This document shows positions 7,309 to 30,913 of a DNA stretch of 64,000 bases, in pieces. The notes under the pieces were generated by a model, which was given only the letters and a program-made list of their open reading frames with translations, had not been told where the DNA came from and ran no database searches. Numbering within the stretch: position 1 is the first letter of the stretch; the number at the start of each line of letters is the position of its first letter. The DNA is from Nitrosococcus halophilus Nc 4. Its GTDB lineage: Bacteria > Pseudomonadota > Gammaproteobacteria > Nitrosococcales > Nitrosococcaceae. Both the position numbers and the translations under genes were made by a program. The stretch covers positions 2,776,001 through 2,840,000 of the forward strand of contig NC_013960.1 in the NCBI RefSeq assembly GCF_000024725.1, given 5' to 3'.

Positions 7309-7689
7309 TCAGACCCGAATCCTGCGCCGCTTTACAACTCCAAGTCCCGCGAGGCCGATCCCCAGGAGGGTAAGGGTGGTGGGTTCAGGAACCTGCGAGA
7401 ACCGCTGAGTAAACCCATCAAGGCTCACCATATCGCCTGGATCATCACCGCTGATAAGGATGGTCTTCTCAACGGATATCAACGATTGCGGCCCAAAGGT
7501 GGACGAGCCAGAGAGATCAAAGAACACTGGCGGCAGATTGTCGGCCACGACGGATTTCGTTCCGATTAGATTACCGCTCCCATCAAAAATATCCTCGAAA
7601 ATATTGATGAAGCCGCCAACATTGTTCTCGCCAAAGAAAAATTGGTTAATCTCAAGCGAGTTATTCCTGATTTTTTGGTAGTCCTGCAT
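7309..7689 (-). pseudogene. PEP-CTERM protein, 5'-truncated by an IS1 end
   Basis: The C terminus is a textbook PEP-CTERM sorting signal: VPEPTTLTLLGIGLAGLG, then a KRRRIRV basic tail. Such proteins are exported and processed by an exosortase. The preceding 95 residues look like a secreted beta-rich fragment, but no signal peptide is present. The first codons (MQDY) are read from the terminal inverted repeat of the IS1 fragment that begins at 7677, so the element cut away the true 5' end and happens to supply an ATG. Probably non-functional. Confidence 0.75.
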
Positions 7690-7928
7690 TGTGAGTGATA
7701 ATCAGGATCGGGTTGTTGGGCAAAGGGTCGCATTATAATGGAGGACAAAATACCAAATAGCGCCGACATGGTTTTCTAATTTCTTAGAGAAAGAGAGTGC
7801 TTTTCTGACTAAACGCGACACACGCTGTCTGAGCGTACAATTAAAGCGTTCAATGTGGCTTGTTTGTCCCGTTTCTTTGCCCACGCTGCGATGGCGTGGC
7901 CCTGGGAAGATAGCCTCATAGGCTTCCA
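7677..7928 (-). mobile_element. IS1-family element, 3' fragment
   Basis: Nearly identical to the right 250 bp of the complete IS1-family element at 23520-24336, in reverse orientation. It includes the terminal repeat GGTAGTCCTGCAT at 7677 and the C-terminal part of the InsB transposase (SHIERFNCTLRQR and onward). Similarity stops near 7928, so the left part of the element is gone. The junction lies between a truncated PEP-CTERM gene and a truncated HlyD gene, consistent with an IS-mediated deletion. Confidence 0.85.
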
Positions 7929-7970
7929 AAATGGGGGTGTACAAATAACTGTGTAACTGGTGATCTGTAA

Positions 7971-15742: not shown

Positions 15743-17051
15743 CTGAGGTATAGACGGATAAAAGGGAATTGTTTAATTAAGAAACAAGCGGTTGCAAGAA
15801 TAGAAGGAGTAGACAGGCACGGAGACATCTGATCTCATACGGGTCACGATTAAAAACCGAAGAGAGGTTGTTCCCGTGCCTGTGAAGAAGATTTTACACC
15901 GGATGTTGTCGGAGATCATGCATTTAAAACGCTTGTGGACGTTGGTGTTGTTGGTGGAGACGGTCTTGGAGACGAAGCGGTTATCGGTAACCCAGCTGGG
16001 TCGGTCATTGAAGTTACCGATTCAAGAGCGCAGTGGGATACGGCGGTCGGACCGATTTATGGGGAATAAGTACGTCCAAGCCCAAAGCAAAGCGGTGTAT
16101 GAGGCGTTAGTCAAGCAGCTGGTGGGAAACAAACGGCGGCCGTGGATACTGGTAGATTGGAGTCATCTACCGAACACAGACTTGTATGTATTGCGGGCAG
16201 CATTAGTGGCGCCGGGACGGGCGTTGACCCTGTATGAGACGGTCCATGCGCAATCGCAGCAGGGGAATGAGCGCGTGCAGCGAGCTTTTTTAAAGACGCT
16301 CAAGGCGTTGTTACCGGCGGCGAGTCGGCCCGTGATTATCACGGACGCCGGATTTCATAATCCCTGGTTTAAGCAAATTGTGAGTTATGGCTGGGATTAC
16401 GTAGGCCGGATCCGGGGGCGAAAATCCTACCGACCGGTGGGGGAGCGGGAATGGCGGCCCTGCCGAGAATTATGGGCGCAAGCCAGTGGCCGAGCGAAGG
16501 CACTCGGAGCGGTAGAGATGTGTCGTAAGAACCCGTTAAAGAGTAGGTTCTATTTGTTCAAAGGAAAAGCCCGGGGTCGGCATGGCAAGTCGATAGCCGA
16601 ATACCGTCTGGCGGCGAAGGAGCCGTGGTTGTTGGCCAGCTCCTTGTGCGGTCGTCAATCGGCCAAGCGCGTGGTGAAACTCTATCGTACGCGGATGCAG
16701 ATTGAAGAAGGGTTCCGGGATTTGAAAAGTCCAGCCTATGGCTTCAGTTTTAATCTGGCCTATAGTCGTGACCCGCACCGCATTGAGGTGTTGCTGTTGA
16801 TTGCGGCTTTGGCAGGCATGGTGGCCTGGGCCGTGGGTTGGCTGACAGAGCGGCAACAATTACATTATCAGTTTCAGGCCAATTCGATAAAACATCGGCG
16901 CGTGCTCTCTCTATTCTATCTAGGCTGCCAAGTGATTCGACGAAAAGTAAGGGTAATCGTAAGTGAACAAAGTATCCGTGAGGTTTTCGATGCTATCGAA
17001 AATGAAGGATGCCCCCCATGAAACAGGGCAATTTATGCGTCTATCCTACAG
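15743..17051 (+). mobile_element. Complete IS4-family (IS10-like) insertion sequence
   Basis: 1309 bp bounded by imperfect inverted repeats beginning CTGAGGTATAGACGGATAAA at 15743 and, on the other strand, CTGTAGGATAGACGCATAAA at 17051. Both sides carry the duplicated target GCCAAGGAG (15734-15742 and 17052-17060). A 9-bp duplication and this length fit IS10-type members of the IS4 family. The intact duplication and open transposase gene point to a fairly recent insertion. Confidence 0.92.
15876..17021 (+). CDS. IS4-family (IS10-like) transposase
   Basis: 381 residues from the GTG at 15876, preceded by GAGAGG. The DDE catalytic triad is visible: Asp in WILVDWSHLPN (about 95), Asp in VIITDAGFHNPW (about 155), and Glu in the YREK-type motif YRTRMQIEEGFRDLK (about 275-290). 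Length and motif spacing match IS10 transposases, which cut and paste with 9-bp duplications. No frameshift or stop is seen, so the enzyme may be active. Confidence 0.92.
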   Translation: MPVKKILHRMLSEIMHLKRLWTLVLLVETVLETKRLSVTQLGRSLKLPIQERSGIRRSDRFMGNKYVQAQSKAVYEALVKQLVGNKRRPWILVDWSHLPNTDLYVLRAALVAPGRALTLYETVHAQSQQGNERVQRAFLKTLKALLPAASRPVIITDAGFHNPWFKQIVSYGWDYVGRIRGRKSYRPVGEREWRPCRELWAQASGRAKALGAVEMCRKNPLKSRFYLFKGKARGRHGKSIAEYRLAAKEPWLLASSLCGRQSAKRVVKLYRTRMQIEEGFRDLKSPAYGFSFNLAYSRDPHRIEVLLLIAALAGMVAWAVGWLTERQQLHYQFQANSIKHRRVLSLFYLGCQVIRRKVRVIVSEQSIREVFDAIENEGCPP

Positions 17052-17824
17052 GCCAAGGAGGCCTGGGTCCAGGCCGCCATCGAGGAAAGCCATGCCCAGG
17101 GAAAACGGGTGGCCGTGCATGCCACTCAGCGGGAAATGGCCCGGGCGGCGGTGGAGGTGGGTGCGGATATTCTGGTCCATAGCATTGAGGATAAGGCGGT
17201 CGATCCCGCGCTGATTCAACGCCTAAAGGCGCGCGGGGTCTCCTACATTACCACGTTCATGGTTCAAGAAGGCTACCGGGAAGTTTTGGGACAGGACATT
17301 GAGCTTTCCCCCATCGAGCAACGTATGGGCGACCCCCAAGTGATCGCCACTTTCAATGATCTGGCCAAACTTCAGCCCTGGCGAGGCTGGCTGGGTGCCT
17401 TGTCCTCCTTTTCCCTTCCCCCGCTGATGGGCCACAACCTCAAGCACCTTCAGGAACAGGGGGTGACCATTGCCGCCGGCACGGATGCGGGCAATATCGG
17501 CACCCTCCATGGACCGGCACTGCACCGAGAACTGGAACTCATGGCCCAGGCCAAGTTATCCCCATTGGAAATCCTGGTTGCGGCCACCCAAGGCGGGGCC
17601 CAAGTGATGGGGCGGGAGTCCGAACTGGGGACGATCGAGACCGGCAAACTCGCGGATCTCCTCCTCCTAGAGGCCGATCCCCTGGAGGACATTCGCCACA
17701 CCCGCCAAATCTACCGGATAGTCAAAGGCGGCACGGTCCTGGATCCGGAACAGATCCTGAAGCATTTGGAAAATCCATGGGAATAAGATGGGCTATCTCC
17801 GAACCCCCGAGGGCGCATACTGAA

Positions 17825-18435
17825 ATGGCTTTCAGAGCGAGACTGCTCATACTGTATGGAGTGATAACTTTCTCCTCCTCCACTTTCGCTCAAAGTGATA
17901 CCAATTTAATCAAAGAATGCAATTTATTAAGGCCTCAAGTGGTTGTTTAGGCTGCATCTATACAATGCAAAATCACATAAAATTGGTATGACACCCCTGG
18001 TGCAACGGCGATACCTCAAAAATCGCCATCGGCTTTGTCGCTCACCGAAATCGTCAAAGGTGCGGTCGGCCCCTTTCCATCTCATTCCGATGGATACGGC
18101 AATCCTGGTGCCAGTGGCTTGGGGTACATTTCTGTGGTGACCCTCCAGACGGGGCAAACGCTCAAAGAATTAGCCCTACCGGGACAACAGGGGGCAGGCT
18201 TGGATGGAACAGTCGCCTTCGACCGTGCGGAAGCGACCGGCACCTATATAGGACAAATCAATCTTATCGTCGCCTCCTCTTTTAGCGGCCTTTGTGCCTT
18301 ACATCGTGCTTGCAAAGGAGGCTGTGCCGCCCGGAGGGCCTGAAAAGCTTTTTGGAAATGAAGATCTCTGATTGGGAGAAAGCGCTGCAACAGAGGAAAA
18401 AACGCAAGGCCTATTCCGTTACCCATCCGCAATGA
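17825..18435 (+). pseudogene. Secreted pyruvoyl-dependent histidine decarboxylase-like gene, broken
   Basis: A signal peptide (MAFRARLLILYGVITFSSSTFAQ) is followed by MITE copy A, which brings stops. After the MITE, in the same frame, the sequence continues with SDGYGNPGASGLGYISV and FDRAEATGTYIGQINL, then ASSFSGL. These match the pyruvoyl-dependent histidine decarboxylase proenzyme, whose Ser-Ser bond is self-cleaved to form the pyruvoyl group. Downstream, in shifted frames, VPYIVLAKEAVPPGG and ISDWEKALQQRKKRKAY resemble the C-terminal end, so the middle has been deleted. Excising the MITE with one TGA copy restores the frame across the signal-peptide junction. Family assignment is from motif memory; export of such an enzyme would be unusual. 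Confidence 0.65.
17899..17988 (-). repeat. 90-bp MITE, copy A
   Basis: Bounded by TACCAATTT and AAATTGGTA, flanked on both sides by TGA (17896-17898 and 17989-17991). It is the reverse orientation of copies B (22992-23081) and C (25963-26052) and has the same length. It is inserted in the signal-peptide region of the pyruvoyl decarboxylase-like gene. Confidence 0.9.
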
Positions 18436-18620
18436 GTGTTCTCACATACCGAGGAAGGGGAAGAACGCTCGGATGGTTTGCTGGTTTGACAGTAAACCCT
18501 CACCGTAGGGGCCTCCGCCGGCAAGCGGCCGCCCCAACGCTCGAAATGGCGAATCGCCGAGCGGTAGGCCCGCCGGGTATTCTCCGCCGTAGCCGCTTCG
18601 ATATAGCGCTGGTGCTGGAG
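18411..18620 (-). pseudogene. Tyrosine recombinase, N-terminal core-binding fragment
   Basis: Minus-strand translation gives QRYIEAATAENTRRAYRSAI then RHFERWGGRLPAEAPTV, which matches the N-terminal SAM-like core-binding domain of XerC/phage-type integrases. The catalytic C-terminal domain with the R-H-R-Y residues is absent. On the upstream side the gene abuts the 75-bp GGCGCGCC repeat. It is a leftover of an integrated element. Confidence 0.65.
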
Positions 18621-18621
18621 T

Positions 18622-18695
18622 GTTGATGCGCGCCCTCCCTGGCGCGCCCCCTGAGGGCATCCTTCGGATGTCCCGATTCGCTCCCGACGAATCGG
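18622..18695. repeat. 75-bp hairpin-rich repeat, copy 1
   Basis: Closely matches 62464-62538. Two GGCGCGCC octamers separated by a few bases (18629-18648) form one stem, and GATTCG...CGAATC (near 18674-18692) forms a second. The same layout after pnp suggests a REP-like palindromic repeat family. Confidence 0.75.
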
Positions 18696-19154
18696 TAAGG
18701 CGCCGTCGGACTCTTCAGAAGCGGCAGCTTCCCGGACGAGTAGAGGAAGGGTTAAAGCTCGACTCATTTTCTTTTCTCGCACCCGCGAAACAATTCAAGA
18801 TAAGGAGGTGAAAAGTACCGTATTTAGCAGGAGGGTTCCAAACAGAGATTCTGCGCTACAATCTTGAATAGCCTAACATGGCCATTGCTTGTTTGGCTAA
18901 ACGGTTCGTTGAAGCGGAACCCATGATGTGTGCCCTGGGGTTCTCCACTTCAGAATTCGAACCCTTTGTGGAACAGGATATGCCACAAAGCCGTAGCAGA
19001 GGGTTGGTTCTATGAATTTTTCATAAATTGCTGATGGGTAGAAGGATGGGGACCCGCTTGTATCCCCCCAACTTCGCACCCATTTAGGCGGTTTGATTCC
19101 CGCCGAATCTTGCAATTTTTCCTCCGAAAAATCATATTCACCGAGGAGGTTGAT
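18696..19154. other. Intergenic stretch without recognisable gene
   Basis: No frame here shows a recognisable protein on either strand. A Shine-Dalgarno-like GAGGAGG near 19142-19148 belongs to the peptidase gene that follows. Confidence 0.5.
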
Positions 19155-20156
19155 ATGTCGCCAGGAAAGGGCCTCGTCGTGGTGGCCGTGATCCTCGCCC
19201 TGGTTGTACTGCTCGGGGGCATCTACATGGTCGTGTTCCACATGCCGGGCCAATCTTACCGTGGCATGCCGCCGCCGTTGGCGAGCGAAGAGAAGGCGTT
19301 ACGTGACCGCCTCCGGGAGCATGTCAGGGTTCTGTCCCACCAGATTGGCGAGCGGCACTACTGGGAACCCCATAACACGCTGAACGCGGCGGTCTACATC
19401 GAACAGACGTTTCGGAACATTGGCTACGAACCGGTCAGGCACGCCGTTCAGACCCGTGAGAGACTATTCGACAATATCGAGGTAACGCTGCGGGGAGACC
19501 GCCTGCAGGACGAATCACTGGTCATCGGCGCCCACTACGACACGGTCCGCGGCAGCCCCGGCGCGGACGACAATGCCTCCGGGGTTGCCGTCCTGCTGGA
19601 GCTGGCGCGGCTGCTGCATGGCGCGAAGCCCGACCGGACCATTCACCTGGTCGCCTTCGCCAACGAAGAGGCCCCCTTCTTCGGCACCCAAGCCATGGGC
19701 AGCCTGAATTACGCCCGACAGACCCGCGCGGACGGCGAGAACATCGTGGGCATGATCTCCCTGGAGATGCTGGGCTACTACACCGGGGAACGCGACAGCC
19801 AGCACTACCCGCCGCCCCTCGGCTACCTCTACCCGGACACGGGGAATTTCGTGGCATTCGTGGGCAACACGGCTTCCCGGCAACTGGTGCGGGACGCCAT
19901 TGAGGCCTTTCGCGAACACGCCACGGTCCCCTCGGAAGGCCTGGCCGCGCCGGAACTGCTGGAAGCCATCCGGCGCTCGGACCACTGGGCCTTCTGGGAG
20001 ATGGGCTACCCGGCCCTGATGCTCACGGACACGGCCAATTTCCGCAACCCCCACTACCACGGCCCGAGCGACACATACCCAACACTGGACTACGAGACCA
20101 TGACGCGGCTGACCGCCGCCCTGGCACAAGCCGTGGCAGACATGGCCCGGCAGTGA
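19155..20156 (+). CDS. M28-family zinc aminopeptidase-like protein, membrane-anchored
   Basis: 333 residues from the ATG at 19155, chosen because AGGAGG lies seven bases upstream. An N-terminal membrane helix (about 6-30) would anchor the enzyme with its catalytic domain outside the cytoplasm. The two-zinc M28 peptidase pattern is visible: His-Asp in GAHYDTVRGSPGADDNASG, Glu-Glu in ANEEAPFF, an Asp/Glu in MISLEMLGYY, and the final His in HYHGPSDTYPTLDY. It is a single unit with no operon partner. The region looks more GC-rich than its neighbours, which would fit acquisition by transfer; the substrate is unknown. Confidence 0.88.
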   Translation: MSPGKGLVVVAVILALVVLLGGIYMVVFHMPGQSYRGMPPPLASEEKALRDRLREHVRVLSHQIGERHYWEPHNTLNAAVYIEQTFRNIGYEPVRHAVQTRERLFDNIEVTLRGDRLQDESLVIGAHYDTVRGSPGADDNASGVAVLLELARLLHGAKPDRTIHLVAFANEEAPFFGTQAMGSLNYARQTRADGENIVGMISLEMLGYYTGERDSQHYPPPLGYLYPDTGNFVAFVGNTASRQLVRDAIEAFREHATVPSEGLAAPELLEAIRRSDHWAFWEMGYPALMLTDTANFRNPHYHGPSDTYPTLDYETMTRLTAALAQAVADMARQ

Positions 20157-20429
20157 AGTGACCCGAGCGTGGCATTGAGCAGATCGCCTGTCCCTATGAC
20201 GGTGTTGTGCATTGCCTCAATGCCCAGGATCTGTCGCAGTGGCGAGCCAGGCTGAATGCAGGAGGAATGAACCTCCAATACCTCGATCTCGACGCCCAAT
20301 CTAACCAGGCCATTGACGATATTCAGCCCGGAGCGTACCCCCAGACCCATAGTCATAGCGGCGATGTGCCAACTAGAGGGTCGGCAACGATTCGTGCGAT
20401 AAACAGCCACAGGGGGCAGCTAAGGGATG
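20157..20429. other. Intergenic stretch, no recognised gene
   Basis: Both strands have short open frames, but none has a recognisable family or a good ribosome-binding site. It may contain degraded coding sequence of unknown origin. Confidence 0.4.
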
Positions 20430-20467
20430 TTGGAAAACATTGTTTTCCAATGCAAAAATACTATACT
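20430..20467 (+). promoter_or_regulatory. Perfect 9-3-9 palindrome with adjacent -10 box
   Basis: TTGGAAAAC-ATT-GTTTTCCAA occupies 20430-20450. TATACT follows at 20462-20467, placed like a -10 element. The palindrome would overlap the -35 region, a typical operator position, about 150 bp before the HTH/coiled-coil gene. It lacks a trailing T-run, so it is not a terminator. Confidence 0.45.
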
Positions 20468-20616
20468 GGTTACTAGTGACGCCTTTCTTTGATTCACTGA
20501 TTGGAGATAAGGCTCTTTATCACGTAGGAGCGCATGAGGCTGGCTTATCTGGCCTTAGGCACAAACCGTTTGGCGGTTGAAGAAAAATGGAACCCGCACG
20601 GAGGGGTCAAAAGGCC

Positions 20617-21183
20617 ATGTATCTTACCCTGGAGCAAGCCGCTAAAGAAACCGGGAAAAGTAAAGACGCCATTGCCAAGGCCATCCAAGCTGAGCAGTTG
20701 CCCGTCCAGAAAGGCGAACAGGGTCAATGGCAAATCGACTCGGCGGATCTGTTTCAGGTGTTCCCTCAGGAGGGTGAGCCGGTGACTTCTTCTTATTCTG
20801 AGCCTTCACCAGACGCGTCTCCACGCTCAGCGGAGGCCTCGCCGGAAAACCCCCTGGAACCGCTAGCGCAGGAAATCCAACAGCTTCGGCAGCAACTTCA
20901 GCACCAGGCCGCGCAAGCCCAAGAACGCTATCAAGAATGGAAACACCTGATGGAACAGGAGGCTAACGAACGACAGCGGTTGATAGAGGCGCTTGCTGCG
21001 CCGTTGGAAGAGGAAAACCAGCAACTTCGCCAAGCCTTAGAGCAGGCGCAGAAAAAGAACCGGGATCTGAAACACCGGCTTGCGGAGGAAGCGAAAGAGC
21101 GGCGGCAACTCACCGAGAAGCTTACGGAGTCTCAATCACCGCCGCAGCCCGCCTGGGCCCGGTGGCTCAACCGGGGGAAATAA
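20617..21183 (+). CDS. HTH-plus-coiled-coil protein (entry-exclusion-1-like)
   Basis: 188 residues from ATG 20617. The first 50 residues (LTLEQAAKETGKSKDAIAKAIQ, then a QWQIDSADLFQVFP wing) look like a MerR/excisionase-type helix-turn-helix that reads DNA. A Pro/Ser/Glu-rich linker follows, then a long Gln/Glu/Arg-rich coiled coil (about 90-180) and a short WARWLNRGK tail. Similar small proteins on plasmids and integrative elements are often called entry exclusion 1 proteins, though their role is poorly established. It stands alone, and the palindromic site upstream could be its operator. An upstream ATG at 20587 would add ten residues. Confidence 0.55.
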   Translation: MYLTLEQAAKETGKSKDAIAKAIQAEQLPVQKGEQGQWQIDSADLFQVFPQEGEPVTSSYSEPSPDASPRSAEASPENPLEPLAQEIQQLRQQLQHQAAQAQERYQEWKHLMEQEANERQRLIEALAAPLEEENQQLRQALEQAQKKNRDLKHRLAEEAKERRQLTEKLTESQSPPQPAWARWLNRGK

Positions 21184-21270
21184 CCCGATGTACTCTACGG
21201 CGAGTATAGGCTTGACCGGAAAAGAATCTTGGGGACCCTACAGCTGCAGCTTGATCTCAACGTTGATGCT

Positions 21271-21382
21271 TAGTGTGTATTCTTACCCAATAGCGCGTAA
21301 AGCATCGCCCAATCGGGCGGTGATATAAGCGCAAGCCGCGAAGCGGCTTTACAGGATTCTCTGATTTTTGTAAAATACAAAT
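21271..21382 (+). other. Left-end hairpins of the tnpB element
   Basis: Two stems precede tnpB: ATCGCCC..GGGCGGTGAT near 21302-21323 and AAGCCGC-GAA-GCGGCTT near 21334-21350. Subterminal hairpins of this kind mark IS200/IS605 left ends recognised by the Y1 transposase, although no tnpA is present here. Confidence 0.4.
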
Positions 21383-22525
21383 ATGACGAAGAGGGCGTAC
21401 CAGGAACGATTCTATCCCACAGCTGAACAAGCCGAACTGCTGGCGCGTTCGTTCGGCTGTGCGCGTTTTGTTTGGAACAGCACGCTCAAGCATCGTACCG
21501 ATGCGTTCTATCAGAACGGCGAAGTCATTCCCCATTCGGCGCTGGAAAAAAGGCTTGTCCAACTCAAGCAGGACTTTTCTTGGCTGAATGAGGTTTCCAG
21601 CGTTATTTTCCAGCAGTTGCTGCGCGATCAGCAGCAGGCTTTCAAGCCCTTCTGGGAGAAGCGAGCGGGGTATCCGCGTTTCAAATCCAAGCATCGGGGC
21701 CAGTCAATCCGACTGACCAAAGCCGCGTTCCGGTTCAAGGACGGCCACCTGTTCATCGCCAAGTCGAGCGAACCGTTGAATATCCACTGGAGCTTCAAGG
21801 ACGGTCTGCCGTCAGAGCCCTCCGCTATCACGATTTCTAAGGACGCAGCGGGACGCTATTTTGTGTCCATGCTGTGTGAATTCGAGTCCGAACCGATGCC
21901 GGTGGTCAACAAGACGGTCGGCATCGATCTGGGTCTGAAAGACTTGTTCGTCACTAGCGACGGATTCAAATCCGGCAATCCCAAGTACACCGAGCAGTAC
22001 GAAGCGAAGCTGGCCTATCTGCAGCGTAAGCTGGCGAAGAAGCGCAAAGGTTCCCGTAACCGCAACAAACTGCGGCTGAAGGTGGCCCGTGTGCACACCA
22101 AAATAGCTGACTGCCGTAGGGACGCCACCCACAAGGCGACCCGCACACTGATCAACGAAAACCAAGTCGTGTGCGTTGAATCTCTGGCGGTGAAGAACAT
22201 GATCAAACACCCCCGGCTTGCCAAGCACATAGCCGATGCCCATTGGGGTGAGTTTGTCCGTCAACTGAAGTACAAGGCGCAGTGGGTAGGGCGAACCGTA
22301 GTCGAGATCGACCGCGGGTTTCCCAGCTCCAAGCGTTGCCCCACCCCAGGGTGCGGACATATCAACGAAACGCTGCCGCTGGAGGTGCGTGAATGGCGCT
22401 GTCCCTCGTGCGGGACTGTCCATGACCGCGACATCGCAGCGGCGATCAATATCAAAACCGCCGGGCTGGCGGGGTTAGCCTCTGGAGCCACTGGAACGGG
22501 GGCGACAACAGGCGTTGTCGCCTAG
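21383..22525 (+). CDS. tnpB: TnpB, RNA-guided nuclease of an IS200/IS605-type element (no tnpA)
   Basis: 380 residues with the full TnpB layout: an N-terminal helical region (RFYPTAEQAELLARSFGCARFVWN), a RuvC-like domain with Asp in VGIDLGLKDLF (about 185), Glu in VVCVESLAVKNM (about 270), and Asp in VHDRDIAAAINI (about 350), and a zinc ribbon CPTPGCGH...CPSCG. All three catalytic residues are intact. TnpB proteins use an omega-RNA from the element's 3' end to cut matching DNA. No Y1 transposase gene accompanies it, so movement would need a TnpA elsewhere, such as the one at 37.6 kb if the ends are compatible. Confidence 0.93.
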   Translation: MTKRAYQERFYPTAEQAELLARSFGCARFVWNSTLKHRTDAFYQNGEVIPHSALEKRLVQLKQDFSWLNEVSSVIFQQLLRDQQQAFKPFWEKRAGYPRFKSKHRGQSIRLTKAAFRFKDGHLFIAKSSEPLNIHWSFKDGLPSEPSAITISKDAAGRYFVSMLCEFESEPMPVVNKTVGIDLGLKDLFVTSDGFKSGNPKYTEQYEAKLAYLQRKLAKKRKGSRNRNKLRLKVARVHTKIADCRRDATHKATRTLINENQVVCVESLAVKNMIKHPRLAKHIADAHWGEFVRQLKYKAQWVGRTVVEIDRGFPSSKRCPTPGCGHINETLPLEVREWRCPSCGTVHDRDIAAAINIKTAGLAGLASGATGTGATTGVVA

Positions 22526-22710
22526 GGAAGGCGTGTTGAACGAGGAAAGTTCTTGGAGTGATCCAACAACCCTCGCCCGACAGGGCCGGGAGAAGTCAGA
22601 GCAATCTGGGTGCGACCCTCCTTCCGGTCCTACAGCTGCTGTATCTACTCTGCGTCAAACACGGCGACGGGGGGTACCTCCTAGGTGCGTCGTCGGGTTG
22701 TCCTCATAGG
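22526..22710 (+). ncRNA. Candidate omega-RNA / right end of the tnpB element
   Basis: The 185 bp after tnpB encode no plausible protein but show several short complementary blocks. In this family the guide RNA scaffold overlaps the 3' end of tnpB and extends to the element's right end, so its presence here is expected from the family. The exact 3' boundary, and hence the guide, cannot be fixed by eye. Confidence 0.4.
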
Positions 22711-22720
22711 CAGAGTCGCT

Positions 22721-22987
22721 TTATGGTACCCCTGTAAATCCGATACCAACTGATATGTTAGCCAGATTCTTGGCCTGTCTCCCCGGTGGTTCGCAGCCCG
22801 GTGTATTGTAGCAGGCCTGGAGCCAGCTATTCGTATTGTGTGATATCAGCAACAAATCCTTGTCGTTGGGGTTGTAGGGGCCGTCCGGCACCTTCGGGCC
22901 GTCGGAATTGGGACCCTTTCCACGTACATTACTCCGTGCCTGTGCATCCAGTTCGATGACTAGGTCTCTGATGGCGATTTTTGACAT
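22721..22987 (-). CDS. Small protein resembling a RiPP precursor with leader
   Basis: 88 residues. The N terminus MSKIAIRDL..ELDAQARSNVRGKG resembles leaders of proteobacterial ribosomal peptides, which often run M-x-KI-x-IxDL...ELDxxA..xVxGG. The rest is rich in Gly, Pro, Asn and Asp with two Cys in NTPGCEP/QACYNTPGC context, as in a modified core. No modifying enzyme or exporter is adjacent; the nearest RiPP-type genes are the hvfBC pair 10 kb away, with no proof of a link. A MITE lies immediately upstream of the start codon and has removed its Shine-Dalgarno, so expression is doubtful. Function is inference. Confidence 0.5.
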   Translation of the reverse strand: MSKIAIRDLVIELDAQARSNVRGKGPNSDGPKVPDGPYNPNDKDLLLISHNTNSWLQACYNTPGCEPPGRQAKNLANISVGIGFTGVP

Positions 22988-22991
22988 TTCA

Positions 22992-23081
22992 TACCAATTT
23001 CATGTAATTTTGCATTCTATAGATTCAGTCTAAACAACCACTTGAAGCCTCAATAAATTGCATTCTTTAACTAAATTGGTA
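22992..23081 (+). repeat. 90-bp MITE, copy B
   Basis: TACCAATTT...AAATTGGTA flanked by TCA on both sides (22989-22991 and 23082-23084). It lies four bases upstream of the start codon of the small leader-bearing gene. Deleting the element and one TCA places GGAGG seven bases before the ATG. Confidence 0.92.
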
Positions 23082-23084
23082 TCA

Positions 23085-23519
23085 ATTCCTCCAATACTGC
23101 AGTTGATGCGATTTGTGGGACCCAATAGCAGTCCCCGAGATGGATCACGTCGCCAGCGGGTGACTGTGACACCGCCTTTAGTTCTTTTGGCAATATCCAT
23201 ACCCAATTGGGAACCCGCCTCCAGAGACCGGATAACCAGTTGAAGTCAAAAAATAATAGAGGAATCTTCGGGTGAGGGCCGGGCTGGATAAACGGGATAC
23301 TGATGCACTTCTACAGACAATAGGGGTGCAGAGTGTTGGCGCGGGTCCGACATCCGCACAGCGATATTGAATTTGGAGCTGCAACGGTGCAGTCACGCTG
23401 CACTTGGCCCAGTTACAACGAAGCTGTCATTATTGTAAGCGCTACTCACCAACCCGAATTCAGCGGCAGCCGTTAATATTAATTCGCCTTGGAGAGGGGT
23501 CTGCTTGTATCTTTTTGAA
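23085..23519. other. Intergenic debris between MITE B and IS1
   Basis: 435 bp with short open frames only and no recognised protein. It probably contains the former promoter region of the small leader-bearing gene. Confidence 0.4.
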
Positions 23520-23592
23520 GGTAGTGCTGCATATTGAGTGATTATGCGCTATATTTATATTATGTATGTATAGATTTCTCAAGGAGATAGCC

Positions 23593-23889
23593 ATGAACTG
23601 TCCCCGATGCGGTGGTACTCATATTGTCAAAAATGGGAGTAATGGGGTCGGGACACCCAAATTTTTATGCAAAGTCTGCGGTCGGCAATTCGTGGAGGAC
23701 CCCAAGAATTGCTCCATTACTCAAGAGACGAAAGAGCTGATTGATAAATTGCTCTTAGAGAGAATTCCGCTGGCAGGGATTGTCCGAGTCACGGGCGTTT
23801 CAGAGCGCTGGTTGCAATATTATGTGAACGATAAATATGCGCATACACCGCGGCGAGTGGAGATAAAAAAAAGTCCAGAGCTCGTTTAA
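23593..23889 (+). CDS. insA: IS1 InsA
   Basis: 98 residues from ATG 23593, preceded by AAGGAG. It has the zinc-finger motif CPRCGGTHIVKNG...CKVCGRQF and a helix-turn-helix, as in InsA proteins that bind IS1 ends and repress the element. Its 3' part contains eight consecutive A residues (23865-23872), the slippery site for frameshifting into insB. Confidence 0.9.
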   Translation: MNCPRCGGTHIVKNGSNGVGTPKFLCKVCGRQFVEDPKNCSITQETKELIDKLLLERIPLAGIVRVTGVSERWLQYYVNDKYAHTPRRVEIKKSPELV

Positions 23890-24311
23890 CCCTTGAGTGC
23901 GATGAGCTTTGGTCGTTTGTCGCCAGAAAGGGCAATAAACAATGGGTGTGGTTAGCGTTCGATAGGGACACCCAAGAAGTTGTGGGGGTTTATATCGGCG
24001 ATCGGAGTCAAACAGGGGCACAAGGATTATGGCAGTCCTTACCCGCCGTTTATCGGCAGCGGGCCGTAAGTTACACCGATTTTTGGGAAGCCTATGAGGC
24101 TATCTTCCCAGGGCCACGCCATCGCAGCGTGGGCAAAGAAACGGGACAAACAAGCCACATTGAACGCTTTAATTGTACGCTCAGACAGCGTGTTTCGCGT
24201 TTAGTCAGAAAAGCACTCTCTTTCTCCAAGAAATTAGAAAACCATGTCGGCGCTATTTGGTATTTTGTCCACCATTATAATGCGACCCTTTGCCCAACAA
24301 CCCGATCCTGA
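23593..24311 (+). CDS. insB: IS1 InsAB' transposase by programmed -1 frameshift
   Basis: The insB frame lies -1 relative to insA and reads through the A-run at 23865-23872, giving KKKSRARLTLECDELWSFV. It carries the IS1 DDE residues: Asp of DELWSFV, Asp in SYTDFWEAY, and Glu in HIERFNCTLRQRV. The fused product is the active transposase. Both frames are otherwise intact, so the element may still move. Confidence 0.85.
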
Positions 24312-24518
24312 TTATCACTCATAATGCAGGACTACCTTTTTGAATAGTGCAAGGCGGCTCGAGCTGGCCCTTTTCGGCCCCAGAGCATTCAACCACAGTC
24401 AGTTTGGCTGCGTTTTTGACAATGCGCTACTATTTTCACGCAGGGGTAATCGCATGAATAAATTTCAAACTATCCCCCTTCCTTCCCTTTTCTACGCTGA
24501 CTTTTAAAGGATTTCCCG

Positions 24519-25817
24519 ATGACGCATTTTGGTCTGCTTTGCCCCGCTTTGACGGGCCATCTCAATACGCTGCTCCCTCTGGGGCAAGCGCTGCAAAAGC
24601 GCGGCCATCGCGTGACCCTGGTGGGCCTACTTGATGCCGAGCCCCCCACGCGTGCGGCAGGCTTGGAATTTCGGCCTATTGGCGAAACGGAAAGACCCGC
24701 GGGGGCCATAGCTGAGCTCACCGCTCAAGCGAGCACTTTAAGTGGGCGGGCGGCGCTTCGCTATGCGGTTGCGGTCTTTCAACAAGATGCTGCCCTGCTC
24801 TTGCGGGAAGCCCCGGCAGTGATTAAAGCCGCAGGGATAGACGCGCTGCTGGTTGACCAATTCTCGCGAGGAGGGGGCACGGTCGCGGATTTTTTAAACC
24901 TTCCCTTTATTACCCTCTGCAGTGGTGTGGTGCTCAATCGAGAGCCGAGCATTCCGCCTTTTAATACCTCCTGGAACTATCATCCGGCGTGGTGGGCTCA
25001 GCTACGCAACCGACTAGGCTATGGGCTGCTCAGTCGCGTGACCCAACCCCTCACTGAAGTCGTGGCTGAATATCGCCGCACCTGGAATTTACCCCCCCTT
25101 TCCCATCCCAATGAGGCCTATTCTCAACTGGCGCAAATCAGTCAACAACCGGCTGAATTGGAATTTCCCCGGCAGCAATTGCCCCCCTGGTTCCATTTCA
25201 CAGGACCCTATCACTCTTCAGGAAGCCGGGAGCCGGTACCTTTCCCATGGGAGAAACTGACGGGACAACCGCTGATTTACGCTTCCATGGGCACGGTGCT
25301 CGGCCGCTTTAAGGGGGTTTTTCAGCAAATTGCCGCCGCCTGTGAGGGTCTCGATGCCCAATTGGTGATTTCTCTCGGCGGTTCAGTCCCTCCTGAAGCC
25401 TTGCCGGCCCTACCGGGTTCGCCGCTGGTGGTCGGCTATGCGCCCCAATTAGAACTGCTCCAACGGGCCGCGCTGACGATCACCCATGCCGGTATGAACA
25501 CCACCTTAGAATCCTTAAGCAATGGGGTGCCGCTGGTCGCCATTCCCATTGCCAACGATCAGCCTGGCGTGGCGGCACGGGTAGCGTGGACCGGCGCGGG
25601 GGTCAGGGTCCCCCTGAAACGCCTGCGTGTCCCCCGGCTGCGTCAGGCCATTGCCCAGGTGCTGACCCACGATTCTTACCGAAAGCATGCCCTTAGGTTC
25701 CAAGCGGCCATTCAGCGCGCAGGAGGGGTGGATCAGGCCGTGGAGATTATCCTGCAGGCGGTCTCTACCGGAAAGCCTGTTTTAAGAGAAACAAACGCCC
25801 CAGGCATGGGCGGTTAG
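24519..25817 (+). CDS. GT1-family glycosyltransferase (CrtX/MGT-like)
   Basis: 432 residues of the GT-B fold. The N-terminal domain starts THFGLLCPALTGHLNTLLPLGQAL, with the His of GHxN used as catalytic base in this family. The C-terminal sugar-nucleotide domain shows PLIYASMGTVLG and the donor motif HAGMNTTLESLSNGVPLVAIP.ANDQPGVAARV. Close family members glucosylate carotenoids (zeaxanthin glucosyltransferase CrtX) or macrolides. The presence of a CruF-like carotenoid gene at 13.1-13.7 kb makes a carotenoid acceptor attractive, but that is inference. It is monocistronic, between an IS1 element and a broken sulfotransferase. Confidence 0.85.
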   Translation: MTHFGLLCPALTGHLNTLLPLGQALQKRGHRVTLVGLLDAEPPTRAAGLEFRPIGETERPAGAIAELTAQASTLSGRAALRYAVAVFQQDAALLLREAPAVIKAAGIDALLVDQFSRGGGTVADFLNLPFITLCSGVVLNREPSIPPFNTSWNYHPAWWAQLRNRLGYGLLSRVTQPLTEVVAEYRRTWNLPPLSHPNEAYSQLAQISQQPAELEFPRQQLPPWFHFTGPYHSSGSREPVPFPWEKLTGQPLIYASMGTVLGRFKGVFQQIAAACEGLDAQLVISLGGSVPPEALPALPGSPLVVGYAPQLELLQRAALTITHAGMNTTLESLSNGVPLVAIPIANDQPGVAARVAWTGAGVRVPLKRLRVPRLRQAIAQVLTHDSYRKHALRFQAAIQRAGGVDQAVEIILQAVSTGKPVLRETNAPGMGG

Positions 25818-25922
25818 CAAGGGAAAGAGGGGTCATTATAGATAGGACCTTTCCCCCACCCTTAATGCAGCGGACGACTTTCGCCGTCACCCTGCGAGGG
25901 TATTCACGTGGATTTTAATTCT

Positions 25923-26451
25923 TTAAGTGCGAAGCCAGCGACTCCATTCACAGCCAGCGTAATACCAATTTCATGTAATTTTGCATTGTATAGATGCAGT
26001 CTAAACAAGCACTTGAAGCCTTAATAAATTGCATTCTTTGATTAAATTGGTATTACGCAACGGGAATCGGTAGCGATGCAAGAAAGCCTCCCGGTTCGCC
26101 TCGCTGCGCGCGACCTCAAGGGGGTTGCGCATCAGGCGCAACGAGCTGCATCTGGGGAAAGAACTCCGGCGCCAGGTCCCAGTAGGACTTCAGGAAGGCA
26201 TGACTCGTTTCGATGTAGACGTGCGGCGCGTACCGGCGAATGCGCTGTTGCTTCCTCAATAACTGCTTTCTTACCGCTTCCACATCGCCGATACAGCGGT
26301 CATAGATTGGCCGGCCGAACATCGTCGGATTACCCCAGTCAAAGAAAGGCTCGTGGAATACGACGCATTGGCGGGTGTTCCGCCGCAGGAGCCCACAAAG
26401 AAAACCCGTTCCTGAGCGCCCGCTCGTGAGGGTGAAGATGGTCCGGGTCAC
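25923..26451 (-). pseudogene. Sulfotransferase-family gene, frameshifted and MITE-interrupted
   Basis: Starts at GTG 26451 with FTLTSGRSGTGFLCGLLRR, the PAPS-binding P-loop-like start of sulfotransferases, then ETSHAFLKSYWDL. An extra base near 26140 shifts the frame; read past it, the next segment is RLMRNPLEVARSEANREAF, the conserved 3'-phosphate-binding region. MITE copy C then interrupts the gene, and a stop follows soon after on the far side. The C-terminal half is missing. The original enzyme would have moved sulfate from PAPS to an unknown acceptor. Confidence 0.75.
25963..26052 (+). repeat. 90-bp MITE, copy C
   Basis: TACCAATTT...AAATTGGTA, flanked by TAA (25960-25962) and TTA (26053-26055). 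Because of the flanks, the inverted repeat extends to about 15 bases here. Same orientation and length as copy B, inside the sulfotransferase remnant. Confidence 0.9.
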
Positions 26452-26554
26452 CGCCCATTCCTGTCCGGCAGGATTACTTTAAAAACGGCTGTTTCACCGG
26501 GCCGGATTTTGACAACGCCATTGCCTCCATCGAATAGTTTCAATTCTGTGTTCT

Positions 26555-26836
26555 TTGGAGTTTCGCCATGACTGATTTCAATTTTGTTCCTACAAAACTT
26601 CATCAATCTGGAGAATTCGCGGTTCCTCGCGGTCCTCGACGAAGGGGTGACCTTGGTCTTGGGGTCTTTACCGCTCCTCGCGCTTTCACTTCGGGTGCTC
26701 CCCACCCTAGGCTCCGAGAGCAAAAAAATCATAGCGCCAATTCATGGCAAAACGCAACTCATGTGGCCCTCGCGCTCGGCGCGCCGTTTCACTTCGCAAC
26801 CTTGCTAGGGGGCGCCTAACATCCATGTGAGGCTCC
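26555..26836 (-). repeat. 280-bp dispersed repeat, copy 1
   Basis: Read on the minus strand, it is nearly identical to 43090-43372 and clearly related to 53308-53585. Each copy contains two modules of the form GGAGCCT...CGAAGTGAAA about 110 bp apart. A frame through copies 1 and 2 can be translated (FLLSEPRVGSTRSESARSGK) but is broken in copy 3, so it is probably not protein-coding. Confidence 0.85.
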
Positions 26837-26994
26837 AAGGCAGTATTCAGGATACGTGAACAAACACAGCTGGATCAATGCCCGTAAGCTGTATGACCAG
26901 AGGAACGTCTGCAGCAGGAAACGGTTAAGCCGTAGCTGACAGCAGGAGTACAGGTTCAGGAAATCCTTATCAACATCAGGGCTTTTTATAGCGG
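26837..26994. other. Short intergenic stretch
   Basis: No gene seen. It contains short complementary blocks near 26905-26950 but nothing I can name. Confidence 0.3.
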
Positions 26995-27270
26995 ATGACA
27001 CGTAAGCATTTAGCGGCTTACGACGATCCGGATGTGTGCGCGCTGGCCGCTGCCTATGCGGCTGGGATCGTCCGGAGCCCTCCCTTTGTGGACGGTAATA
27101 AGCACACGGCCTTCATGGCGGCTTATCTCTTTCTGGCGCGCAACGGCCTGCGTCTTACGGCCCCGGAAGACAAAGCCACGTATACGATGAGGGCGCTTGC
27201 CGCGGGCGATATAGATGAAGCCACCTTCGCTGCTTGGCTGCGTGACCACACGCGAGAGATCGACGCATGA
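26995..27270 (+). pseudogene. Doc-like toxin (Fic/DOC fold), N-terminal truncated
   Basis: 91 residues with CALAAAYAAGIVRSPPFVDGNKHTAF, the Doc form of the Fic motif (HPFxDGNKRTA) in which the motif His is replaced by Pro here and the following Arg by His. Doc proteins are about 125 residues and phosphorylate EF-Tu; the first 35 or so are missing. With the leading motif His also lost, activity is unlikely. No Phd antitoxin gene precedes it. Confidence 0.7.
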
Positions 27271-27430
27271 GTGCGGAAAGCAGGCGGATGGAATACCCAT
27301 TGATGCTTTCCCTCCCTAAGGATGATCGTCTGTTCATCGTAGGTCCGCTCTTCAGGGAGACGGGCTCACCGAATATTTACGGTTCTGGTAAGGGAACAGG
27401 CATGGTCGTCACTCTAAGCTATTGAGCCCA

Positions 27431-27856
27431 TTACAGCAAACGCCGCAAGCAGTTCAAATAGGCCTCTTCCGAGGGGGGGGTCCCGCTATCCTGGGCATCC
27501 CAGAGGGTCTGAGCTAGGCACTCCATCATCCGATGTTCCGCCTGATGGAGATCGGGGAGGCGGGAGGCTAAAGTTTGGTAGATGCCCCGAATGCCGGGGG
27601 GACGATCCACGTTGATTTGTTCCTGGAGCGAGATATGTAACGCCATGTGCAGAAAAGGATTTTCTTGTCCATTTTGACCGGAAAACTCTTGTTCCAAGGA
27701 TTCCTTGCGGTCTAGCAAGGGATGATACTCAGGGTGCTGGTCGATGACTTGCCCAATGATGGCTTCCATGGGGGAGAGGGGTTCTCTCGCCTGCTGCTTT
27801 TCCCGCACTACGAGGAAGATTTGCCGCATCTGTTGCCGATCTTGACTGTACATCAT
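27431..27856 (-). CDS. DUF1841 family protein
   Basis: 141 residues with the DUF1841 pattern: MYSQDRQQMRQIFLVVREK, then PLEA/GQVI.QHPEYHPLL, and NPFLHMALHISLQEQINVDRPPGI near the middle. The protein is soluble and conserved in beta- and gammaproteobacteria; its function is unknown. It starts immediately after the nth stop and is the last gene of the metG-rnf-nth run, so it is likely cotranscribed with endonuclease III. Confidence 0.85.
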   Translation of the reverse strand: MMYSQDRQQMRQIFLVVREKQQAREPLSPMEAIIGQVIDQHPEYHPLLDRKESLEQEFSGQNGQENPFLHMALHISLQEQINVDRPPGIRGIYQTLASRLPDLHQAEHRMMECLAQTLWDAQDSGTPPSEEAYLNCLRRLL

Positions 27857-28528
27857 TTAGCTCGCTGTTTTCTTCAATCCAGGGGATTCCGCCTTGACTA
27901 TCTTTTGATAATAGTCGCAAAGGTCGTTGATTAAACAGTCTTGGCAGCGAGGATTGCGGGCGGTGCACACATAGCGGCCATGGAGAATGAGCCAGTGGTG
28001 GGCATCGTGCTTAAATTCATCGGGGATCACCCGGGTCAGTATGTCCTCCACCTGGCGCGGCGTTTTACCCGGGGCCAGGCCGATGCGGTTGGCCACCCGG
28101 AAAATGTGGGTATCGACGGCAATGACCGGTTGGCCGAAAGCGGTGTTGAGCATGACATTAGCGGTCTTTCGTCCTACCCCGGGCAGGGCTTCTAAAGCGG
28201 CCCGATCATTAGGCACTCGGCCATCATGCCATTCTAACAGAAGATGGCAGGTCTGGAGGATATTCTTCGCTTTGCTGTTGAATAGGCCGATGGTCTTGAT
28301 GTAACCCTTTAAGCCTTCTTCTCCCAGATCCAGGATGGCCTGGGGGGTATTGGCCACCGGAAAAAGCTTGGCGGTGGCTTTATTGACCCCTTTATCCGTG
28401 GCTTGGGCGGACAAGATGACGGCAACGAGAAGTTCAAAGGGAGTATGGTGCTTCAGCTCCGTGGTGGGTTTAGGGTTGGCCGCTTGGAAGCGGGAGAATA
28501 TTTCATGAATTTCTGCGCTATTTTTCAT
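27857..28528 (-). CDS. nth: Endonuclease III
   Basis: 223 residues. The helix-hairpin-helix LPGVGRKTANVM, with catalytic Lys, and the aspartate in VDTHIFRVANR identify the DNA glycosylase/AP lyase that removes oxidised pyrimidines. The C-terminal CTARNPRCQDCLINDLC carries the [4Fe-4S] cluster cysteines with the C-x6-C-x2-C-x5-C spacing. It follows rnfE by 15 bp, the same rnf-nth order known in Escherichia coli. Confidence 0.95.
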   Translation of the reverse strand: MKNSAEIHEIFSRFQAANPKPTTELKHHTPFELLVAVILSAQATDKGVNKATAKLFPVANTPQAILDLGEEGLKGYIKTIGLFNSKAKNILQTCHLLLEWHDGRVPNDRAALEALPGVGRKTANVMLNTAFGQPVIAVDTHIFRVANRIGLAPGKTPRQVEDILTRVIPDEFKHDAHHWLILHGRYVCTARNPRCQDCLINDLCDYYQKIVKAESPGLKKTAS

Positions 28529-28543
28529 GGCAGGAATGGTTTT

Positions 28544-29251
28544 TTAAATGCGCTCGGGCAAGATACCTGCAGGTTGGGCGGCGCGGCTTTTTCGGGTTGC
28601 AGCCCGTTGTGCAAGCCGGTGGTCGATGGCATTTTTCAGGGCGATCAAAAGCCCGAGGCCAATAAAAGCACCCGGTGGCAGCACGGCCATGAGAAAGCCC
28701 CGATAGTCTTCCATGAGGGTCAATTTCAAATCGCGGGCGGCTTCACCGAACATGAGATGGGCCTGGTCCAGCAAGGTTCCCTGGCCTAGGGCTTCCCGCA
28801 AGCCACCCAAAAGCACCAGCACCAGGGTAAAGCCCAGGCCCATCATGAGGCCATCGGCAAAAGCCCGACCCACCTTTTGCCGAGAGGCGAAGGCTTCGGC
28901 GCGGCCAATGATGGCGCAATTGGTGACGATCAGCGGAATAAAAATACCCAGAACTTTATATAAATCATAGAAATAGGCATTCATCAACAATTCGATGGTG
29001 GTCACGATGGAGGCGATGATCAGCACGAACACCGGCAGGCGCACTTCCGTGGGGACCCAATGACGAATAAGGGCCACCAGGCTGTTGGAGGCCACCAAGG
29101 TCAGCAGAGTGGCCAGCCCCAGACCCAGGCCGTTGATTACCGTTCCGGTGACCGCCAGTAGGGGACAGAGTCCCAGTAACTGCACCAACGCGACATTATT
29201 GTTCCATAGTCCTTCTTGGCTGATTTGACCATAGCTAACGGGGGCTGCCAT
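28544..29251 (-). CDS. rnfE: Rnf electron transport complex subunit E
   Basis: 235 residues from ATG 29251, which has GAGGAGG about ten bases upstream; an upstream start at 29275 is less likely. Six membrane helices and the pattern [22 protein letters not shown] match RnfE/RsxE, homologous to NqrD and RnfA. It forms part of the membrane channel that couples ferredoxin:NAD electron flow to ion movement and holds a cysteine for the shared [2Fe-2S] site (GLCP and NCAIIGRAE). It overlaps rnfG by 17 bases. Confidence 0.94.
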
Positions 29252-29879
29252 GGAAGCGTTCCTCCTCTTGGGCAAAGAGTTTATCTCGGTGATTCTCGAA
29301 ATACTTCAGGGTGTTGCGGACTGCTTTGACGATGGCCCGGGGAGTGATGGTGGCCCCGGTGAACTGATCGAAGGCGCCACCGTCTCGCTTGACTTGCCAC
29401 TTCGATTCAGGGGGATTGCCGAGGGAGCGGTTCCTAAAACCCAAGATCCACTCAGACTTTCCTTCCTCGATCTCATCCCCCAGCCCAGGGGTTTCCTTAT
29501 GGGAGAGGACCCTTACCCCCGCCAGGCTGCCGTCGTAGTGGATTCCCACCAGCAGCTTAATCGCCCCATTATAACCCTCCGGTGCCACGGGTGTGAGGAT
29601 CACCGCCACCGGTTGACTATCCCGACGGGCTCGGTAAGCCAGTATGGGCTTCTCCGTTCCCAGCAGGGGGTCGCTCACTTGGAACGTGTCTTCTAGAATA
29701 GGGTTATTGTAGGCCGTACTAGGCAGGACTGCTGCAATGGCCTGCCGTAAGGCCGCCCGTTCATTGGCCGCAATCTGCTCCCGGGTCAGGGCTTCGGTGA
29801 TAGCCACGATGCCGGTCCCCGCTACCGCAAAGAGGCCGAGCAGCAAGCCGACTCGGAGCATTGGGCGATTCCCTATCAC
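29235..29879 (-). CDS. rnfG: Rnf electron transport complex subunit G
   Basis: 214 residues with one N-terminal membrane helix and a periplasmic FMN-binding domain. The motif [17 protein letters not shown] holds the threonine that covalently carries FMN through a phosphoester bond in RnfG/NqrC. ATG 29879 overlaps the rnfD stop (ATGA), showing coupled translation. Confidence 0.94.
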
Positions 29880-30913
29880 GGGCGCCGGTTTTGGCCAAAG
29901 ACCCGCGGCGGGGTGTAATAATCAATGAGGGGAACCGCCATATTCATGAGCAGGACGGCAAAGGCCACCCCATCCGGGTAACCTCCCCAAGTGCGAATGA
30001 TATAGGTCAGACAACCGATGCCGGCCCCATAAAGCAAACGGCCCCGGGGGGTGGCCGCGGCAGTGACCGGATCGGTGGCAATGAAAAAGACCCCCAGCAG
30101 GGTGCCGCCACTGACAAGGTGGAACAGGGCAGAAGGGTGGGTGGCAGGTTCCAGCCATTGGAAGAGCAGGGCCAGGGTCAGCAAGCTACCCACCATGGCA
30201 AAGGGAATATGCCAGCTAATTACCCGCTTATAGAGGAGCCATAGGCCCCCCAGGAGAAACCCCATATTGATCCACTCCCAACCCTTGCCTCCCAGCATGC
30301 CAAACAGGGGGTGGGTGCGGATTTCCGCCATGGGTTGACCGAGCCCCAATTGAGTTTTGGTGTAGTCCAGGGGGGTTGCCCCTGAGAGGGCATCGATTGT
30401 TGTTCCTTGAGCAGGGGTACCGGTGAATACCCAGGTTAGACTCTCTTTCAGACTTAAAGGTTGGGCAGCTAACTCCTGTACGGGTAGCCAGGTGGTCATT
30501 TCCTTGGGAAAGGAAATCAGCAATAGTACATAGCCGACCATGGCGGGATTGAAGGGGTTGTAGCCCAGGCCCCCATAGAGATGCTTGGCAAAGATAAGGG
30601 CAAACGCAGTGCCGATGACGGGCACCCACCAGGGACTCAGGGGGGGGAGGCAAAGAGCGAGCAGAACGGCCGTCACCACCGCGCTGCCATCGGTCAAAAA
30701 GGGGGTGAGGGGTTGCTGCCGGGCTACCAACATGAGCGTTTCGGTAGCCAAAGCAGCGGTGACGGCAAGGGCGATATTGATGAGGACTCCGTAACCGAAA
30801 TATCCCACATAGAGGGCGATGGCCGGCACCAGGGCATAAATCACTTGGAACATGAGCTGGGAAATGCCTTTTCCCTGATGTAGGTGGGGCGAGCTGAAAA
30901 ATTGAAACGGCAT
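29876..30913 (-). CDS. rnfD: Rnf electron transport complex subunit D
   Basis: 345 residues with about nine membrane helices. The motif DALSGATPLD carries the threonine for the second covalent FMN, as in RnfD/NqrB. Together with RnfA and RnfE it forms the membrane core through which sodium or protons move. It sits 34 bp after rnfC and overlaps rnfG. Confidence 0.94.
   Translation of the reverse strand: MPFQFFSSPHLHQGKGISQLMFQVIYALVPAIALYVGYFGYGVLINIALAVTAALATETLMLVARQQPLTPFLTDGSAVVTAVLLALCLPPLSPWWVPVIGTAFALIFAKHLYGGLGYNPFNPAMVGYVLLLISFPKEMTTWLPVQELAAQPLSLKESLTWVFTGTPAQGTTIDALSGATPLDYTKTQLGLGQPMAEIRTHPLFGMLGGKGWEWINMGFLLGGLWLLYKRVISWHIPFAMVGSLLTLALLFQWLEPATHPSALFHLVSGGTLLGVFFIATDPVTAAATPRGRLLYGAGIGCLTYIIRTWGGYPDGVAFAVLLMNMAVPLIDYYTPPRVFGQNRRP

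Follow-up and report, generated by a model that had tools for sequence, protein, structure and literature searches.

The window analysed here is a stretch of 64,000 nucleotides (64 kb) from the halophilic ammonia oxidiser Nitrosococcus halophilus Nc 4 (positions 2776001–2840000 of a contig of 4,079,427 bases), and all positions below refer to it. It contains three copies of a 90-bp miniature inverted-repeat element (MITE). The copy considered in this study, copy B, occupies positions 22992–23081 and ends in TACCAATTT and AAATTGGTA. Its left neighbour is an IS200/IS605-type element with TnpB at 21383–22525 (plus strand) and a repeated end reaching to about 22605; its right neighbour is a part of an IS1-family transposase (23566–23889, plus strand), whose repeated end begins at about 23519. 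The target-site duplication of copy B is TCA, with one copy at 22989–22991 and the other at 23082–23084. On the minus strand the element is followed by an orphan reading frame of 88 codons, hereafter P0001 (22721–22987), and the four bases 22991–22988 separate it from the start codon, ATG 22987. At the other side of the element a GGAGG is located (23088–23092, minus strand), which may be read either as a Shine-Dalgarno-like (SD) motif or as the in-frame Gly codons GGA GGA of a continuous frame. A frame of 54 codons is open upstream of the MITE (23084–23245, minus strand; possible starts TTG 23206 and ATG 23200), and it is in phase with P0001 after 93 bp are discounted. In the present-day sequence the upstream frame (23030–23206, minus strand) runs into the MITE and ends at a TAG within it.

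Copy B is thus a 90-bp TNA-targeting MITE that entered a stretch flanked by an IS200/IS605-type element on one side and an IS1-family element on the other; a GGAGG and an ATG now stand on either side of it. The first-pass annotation had proposed that copy B parts GGAGG from ATG 22987, and the coordinates agree with this: the linear spacer is 100 nt with copy B in place and 7 nt (AATTGAA) after subtraction of the 90 bp and one TCA. It had also stated that no such SD motif precedes the ATG when the MITE is present. This is correct as well, given that neither GGAGG/AGGAG nor GGAG/GAGG/AGGA/AAGG is found 4–10 nt before ATG 22987 with the element present.

A search of the N. halophilus genome with the element yielded 71 first-look candidates, 40 of which scored as matches, six being identical to copy B. 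When up to three mismatches were allowed, the terminal pattern occurred at 63 ends in the genome vs none for the reversed-pattern control. For further comparison 55 copies with distinct flanks were retained. We left out unpaired ends (no partner at a distance of 90 bp), elements whose identity to copy B was below 60%, copies with a flank shorter than 200 bases, and copies whose 30-base flanks duplicated those of another copy. Matching 3-bp duplications surround 49 of the 55 copies, with six having no match, and all 49 are of the form TNA (TAA 21, TGA 12, TCA 9, TTA 7). Since the 49 copies carry identical TNA duplications, the boundaries of copy B are firm. We also considered a TA duplication (IS630-like), for which the empty-site spacer would equal 12 nt. 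It was excluded, as the same 49 copies repeat the full TNA outside TACC/GGTA; the full repeat was already present in 35 of the first 40 copies checked. An identical sequence is shared by six of the 55 compared copies, including copy B. Across the 27 distinct variants, 97.9% of the cells of the 9-bp inverted repeats pair, and the pairs are invariant in four of nine positions.

The element has inverted-repeat ends, generates a target-site duplication, is 90 bp long and multi-copy, and carries no transposase of its own, which are the features that define a MITE. As a MITE it is certainly more than a product of chance, and copy B is an ordinary, well-bounded insertion of it. The 3-bp TNA duplication is a mark of the IS1031-type group of the IS5 family, and the element may be of the IS5-family IS1031 type, or Tourist-like. 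It is similar to bacterial TNA-duplicating MITEs in being short, in having inverted-repeat ends and many copies, and in the lack of a transposase. In contrast to them, no parent insertion sequence bearing a transposase and sharing these ends was found among the 18 PF01609 loci examined in the genome, a survey in which the IS1031 group was not singled out and whose domain may not cover the transposases of that group; we therefore assign the element to no family. At two of the 18 loci the 90-bp MITE is located nearby. Among the congeners, G003 contains at least 15 element matches, the own genome having as many listed in the same scan, G002 contains one partial match, and G001 none. Scanning of the named genomes with the MITE-end pattern and of the viral contigs with the empty-site pattern gave no matches.

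The duplications match in two of the three copies within the window. The exception is copy C (25963–26052), which is bordered by TAA and TTA and thus has no direct repeat; its flanks are GCGTAA/TTACGC, so that the outer bases extend a palindrome. In five of the 55 copies (L002, L005, L009, L011 and L029) a gene called by a crude gene caller terminates 11–16 nt into the element, and the stop codon comes from the element.

We estimated how often an SD motif and a start may become separated by such insertions. A split was counted if GGAGG or AGGAG occurred 4–10 nt before a start across the joined junction, in both orientations of a copy. It was seen in one of the 110 copy orientations (55 copies). 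At the TNA sites of the window, real gene starts included, a split occurs in 35 cases out of 6802, that is, 0.57 are expected per 110. For frames of at least 80 codons the count is 9 out of 6802, or 0.15 expected per 110. With dozens of copies in the genome, one SD–start split is unsurprising. A different figure is obtained if a single ATG is considered. A strong SD is located 4–10 nt before 23 of the 1891 ATGs of the window, and at some start within the first 15% of the length in five of the 31 long open reading frames (ORFs). On this comparison, GGAGG at 7 nt would favour a real start at most about 13-fold; this is an upper limit, because a long ORF was counted whichever of its starts in the first 15% carried the SD. 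The copy-number expectation and the single-ATG enrichment concern separate questions, and neither of them is decisive.

The next issue is whether P0001 is a gene. It has no matches in Pfam, NCBIfam and PHROGs (E up to 1), nor in plasmids, phages and viral contigs, nor in the named-genome scan, which is sensitive to close relatives only. No RNA families were found at the locus (E up to 1). Besides P0001 itself, a set of 192 relatives gave one match with stops, and a set of 398 genomes from the phylum gave another, the own genome being counted in both sets. These two candidates (G167 with four internal stops and G379 with one) were rejected as homologues, as they look like short Pro/Gly-rich chance alignments. 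A coding model was trained on the 38 long ORFs of the window, with true chunks scored in the left-one-out mode. The score of P0001 is lower than that of 98.7% of the 153 true coding chunks and higher than that of 87.5% of the 765 wrong-frame chunks (12.5% exceed it). The N-terminal half of P0001 is mildly coding-like (likelihood ratio 4.5), whereas the 3' half is very unlike coding sequence (0.04). When the 825-nt region was shuffled base by base, 808 of 2000 shuffles contained an ORF (ATG, GTG or TTG start) of 88 codons or more. A consensus scan of the region 22500–23700, which is weak evidence, found nothing resembling a promoter on the minus strand. Orphan genes do exist, and they score poorly.

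These data bear on the suggestion that a genuine small gene began at ATG 22987, with GGAGG 7 nt ahead of it, and that its translation was cut or lowered by the insertion. It is in agreement with the exact geometry, with the absence of a substitute SD, and with the higher frequency of a strong SD among the long ORFs (5/31) than among the ATGs of the window (23/1891). However, the frame is an orphan with a poor coding signal, the copy number makes one split unsurprising, and the RNA hairpin described below may restore the spacing. Moreover, an SD-like 4-mer is absent from every start within the first 15% in 12 of the 31 long ORFs of the window (a rough count, since the true starts are unmapped), and a start lacking an SD is therefore not necessarily silent. 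We consider a real gene start at this ATG rather unlikely. The first-pass proposal that the insertion silenced a small gene, or put it under new control, stands in part: the GGAGG and the ATG are indeed separated, but the silencing finds no support in the orphan status and weak coding score of the frame.

Another explanation is provided by the frame upstream of the MITE. The element might have cut a longer frame of about 130 codons, running from TTG 23206 or ATG 23200 through the junction to 22721. In that case GGAGG would encode Gly-Gly, ATG 22987 would be an internal Met codon, and the MITE would have added 31 codons with in-frame stops. Indeed, the insertion equals 93 bp, that is, 31 codons, and therefore the P0001 frame stays open upstream when the element is removed. 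The distance from 23206 to 22987 minus 93 bp is 126 nt, which is divisible by three, and the 54 upstream codons are open. Within this frame both the upstream piece (likelihood ratio 2.9) and the N-terminal half of P0001 (4.5) are mildly coding-like.

A parallel is found at copy A (17899–17988, duplication TGA), located within a frame at 17825–18340 on the plus strand. This frame starts with ATG 17825, and its start resembles a signal peptide by eye; past copy A it leads into a PF02329 domain (histidine decarboxylase PI chain; E 6.4e-17). Copy A cuts the frame in the same phase as copy B. Within the element this frame is closed by an in-frame TAG at the position that also stops the copy B frame; it reads ...DTNLIKECNLLRPQVVV-stop, with ...DTNLVKECNLLRLQVVV-stop as its counterpart in copy B. 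Since copy A cuts a frame at the same element position, copy B may have cut a coding sequence too. Thus, the statement that the coding sequence was left untouched by the insertion may not hold: the frame without the 93 bp is open for 54 codons upstream, and the element may cut it.

On the other hand, 54 open upstream codons are not rare, as the local composition predicts them with a frequency of about 0.10 and they are observed for 451 of the 1891 ATGs of the window. The upstream piece has matches in 10 of the 192 genomes besides the own one with E of 0.02–0.09, and no clear homologue. Five of these ten were inspected and rejected as short or weak: four contain stops, and the remaining one, L100, is an alignment of 33 residues with 39% identity within a frame of 385 aa. 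Of the five outside this inspection, three are stop-free (G007, G082 and G043). None of the 55 copies is located inside a called gene, although the crude caller is blind to frames that the element breaks, the one at copy A included. Taken together, these observations leave us with limited belief in a longer frame cut by copy B. As a separate observation, the 15-mer TCAAAAATCGCCATC occurs in the window only at 18016–18030 (plus strand) and 22984–22970 (minus strand), both near MITE copies. It belongs to the flank of copy A and to the start of P0001, respectively, and is in different reading frames.

If transcription of the locus runs leftward, the element would fold into a stem-loop whose closing stem consists of the 9–10-bp inverted repeats; initiation at the ATG need not be lost as a result. 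For the 156-nt context, a 10-bp stem of the element ends is present in both the minimum-energy and the centroid structures, and the pair probabilities of the inverted repeats are 0.71–1.0 in three flank lengths. Outside the stem, AAUUG and GAA lie between GGAGG and AUG, and some of these bases may pair further. In the predicted fold the paired repeats could leave GGAGG about 8 nt from AUG in the mRNA. The mean unpaired probability of GGAGG is 0.38–0.45 with the element and 0.35–0.38 without it; for AUG the respective values are 0.77–0.81 and 0.93–0.98. It might be supposed that the element is a tolerated or even useful looped-out spacer and that the gene is still translated, perhaps being tuned by folding or RNase III.

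A precedent for a hairpin bringing a distant SD into range is known from phage T4. According to the review PMC3014915, a hairpin cuts the SD–AUG distance from 22 to 5 nt in gene 38 and from 27 to 11 nt in gene 25. The T4 genes described there share with copy B a linearly distant SD and AUG that an intervening hairpin could approximate. The same review has the T4 split sites backed by mutations and reporters, while the copy B site comes from a fold prediction; further, the insert here is far longer than in T4, a mobile element supplies the hairpin of copy B, and the frame behind it may be no gene at all. The fold itself is unexceptional, as 187 of 200 shuffles of the 156-nt context (z +1.30) and 63 of 100 shuffles of the 511-nt context fold at least as well, although the element alone folds slightly better than its shuffles (z −1.85). 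The pair changes in the 27 variants do not exceed those in shuffles in the RNA covariation analysis, which would be expected of ends maintained for transposition. A functional looped-out spacer at copy B thus seems to us highly improbable. Equally improbable for this locus is the general scheme it would exemplify, in which a transposon hairpin could enter a translation start, loop out and keep translation, so that a T4-like split start would arise by transposition.

The orthologous locus was not found in three other Nitrosococcus genomes (G001, G002 and G003). Both flanks gave no match in these congeners except where they include the repeated termini of the adjacent insertion sequences, namely, the first 80 bases of the left flank (TnpB element end) and the last 47 bases of the right flank (IS1-family element end). 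G001 and G002 retain the glycosyltransferase gene to the right of the locus, and G003 retains the M28 peptidase stretch to the left of it. The rest of the region 16001–30000 had no match in the stretches fetched around those retained genes. Compared with the three congeners, the host stretch of copy B is found only in this genome.

The insertion of copy B was probably recent, since six copies are identical. On balance, and with modest confidence, we favour the reading in which a recent MITE insertion has separated a coincidental GGAGG–ATG pair rather than the functional start of a small gene. We prefer it because P0001 is an orphan with a weak coding score, frames of this length are common in shuffled sequence, one split was observed vs 0.57 or 0.15 expected, the flanks are absent from the three congeners, and no promoter-like site was seen on the minus strand. 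Against it are GGAGG at exactly 7 nt, the coding-like score of the N-terminal half and the 0.15 expectation for a long frame. The pair would then most likely be a coincidence in non-coding or decayed sequence, and no translation would have been switched off. Silencing does not follow from the insertion as such, and its proposed functional effect is more probably a coincidence than a real one.

Effects of MITEs on adjacent genes have been described. PMC10969869 describes MITEs inserted beside genes, transcripts that form stem-loops, and their cleavage by RNase III at the inverted repeats, and copy B would be similar in the insertion next to a possible gene and in the stem-loop transcript. The separation of an SD from a start is not among the expression effects listed in its section 4.1, and the words 'ribosome', 'Shine' and 'start codon' each occur zero times in its main text. 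Among the papers listed in searches of the open-licence literature, we found no report of a MITE between an SD and a start; Nitrosococcus together with 'miniature inverted-repeat' was not found in the open-licence literature either. If the frame is real, the locus would be a natural test of how a hairpin of ~90 nt between SD and AUG affects initiation, and of the tolerance of inverted-repeat elements at the SD–AUG spacer. As it stands, the locus is mainly a warning that, for an element present in dozens of copies, the joining of flanks can by chance produce what looks like a convincing ribosome-binding site.

Two further features of the genome were noted. The segments 7677–7941 and 24072–24336 form an inverted repeat of 265 nt with 97% complementarity. 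As the latter is located just downstream of the IS1-type ORF, they are probably two copies of a part of that element. In the second contig of the genome (65,833 bases), 31% of the first 15 kb matches a N. watsonii plasmid with 85.9% identity, and 21% matches a N. oceani plasmid with 84.5% identity.
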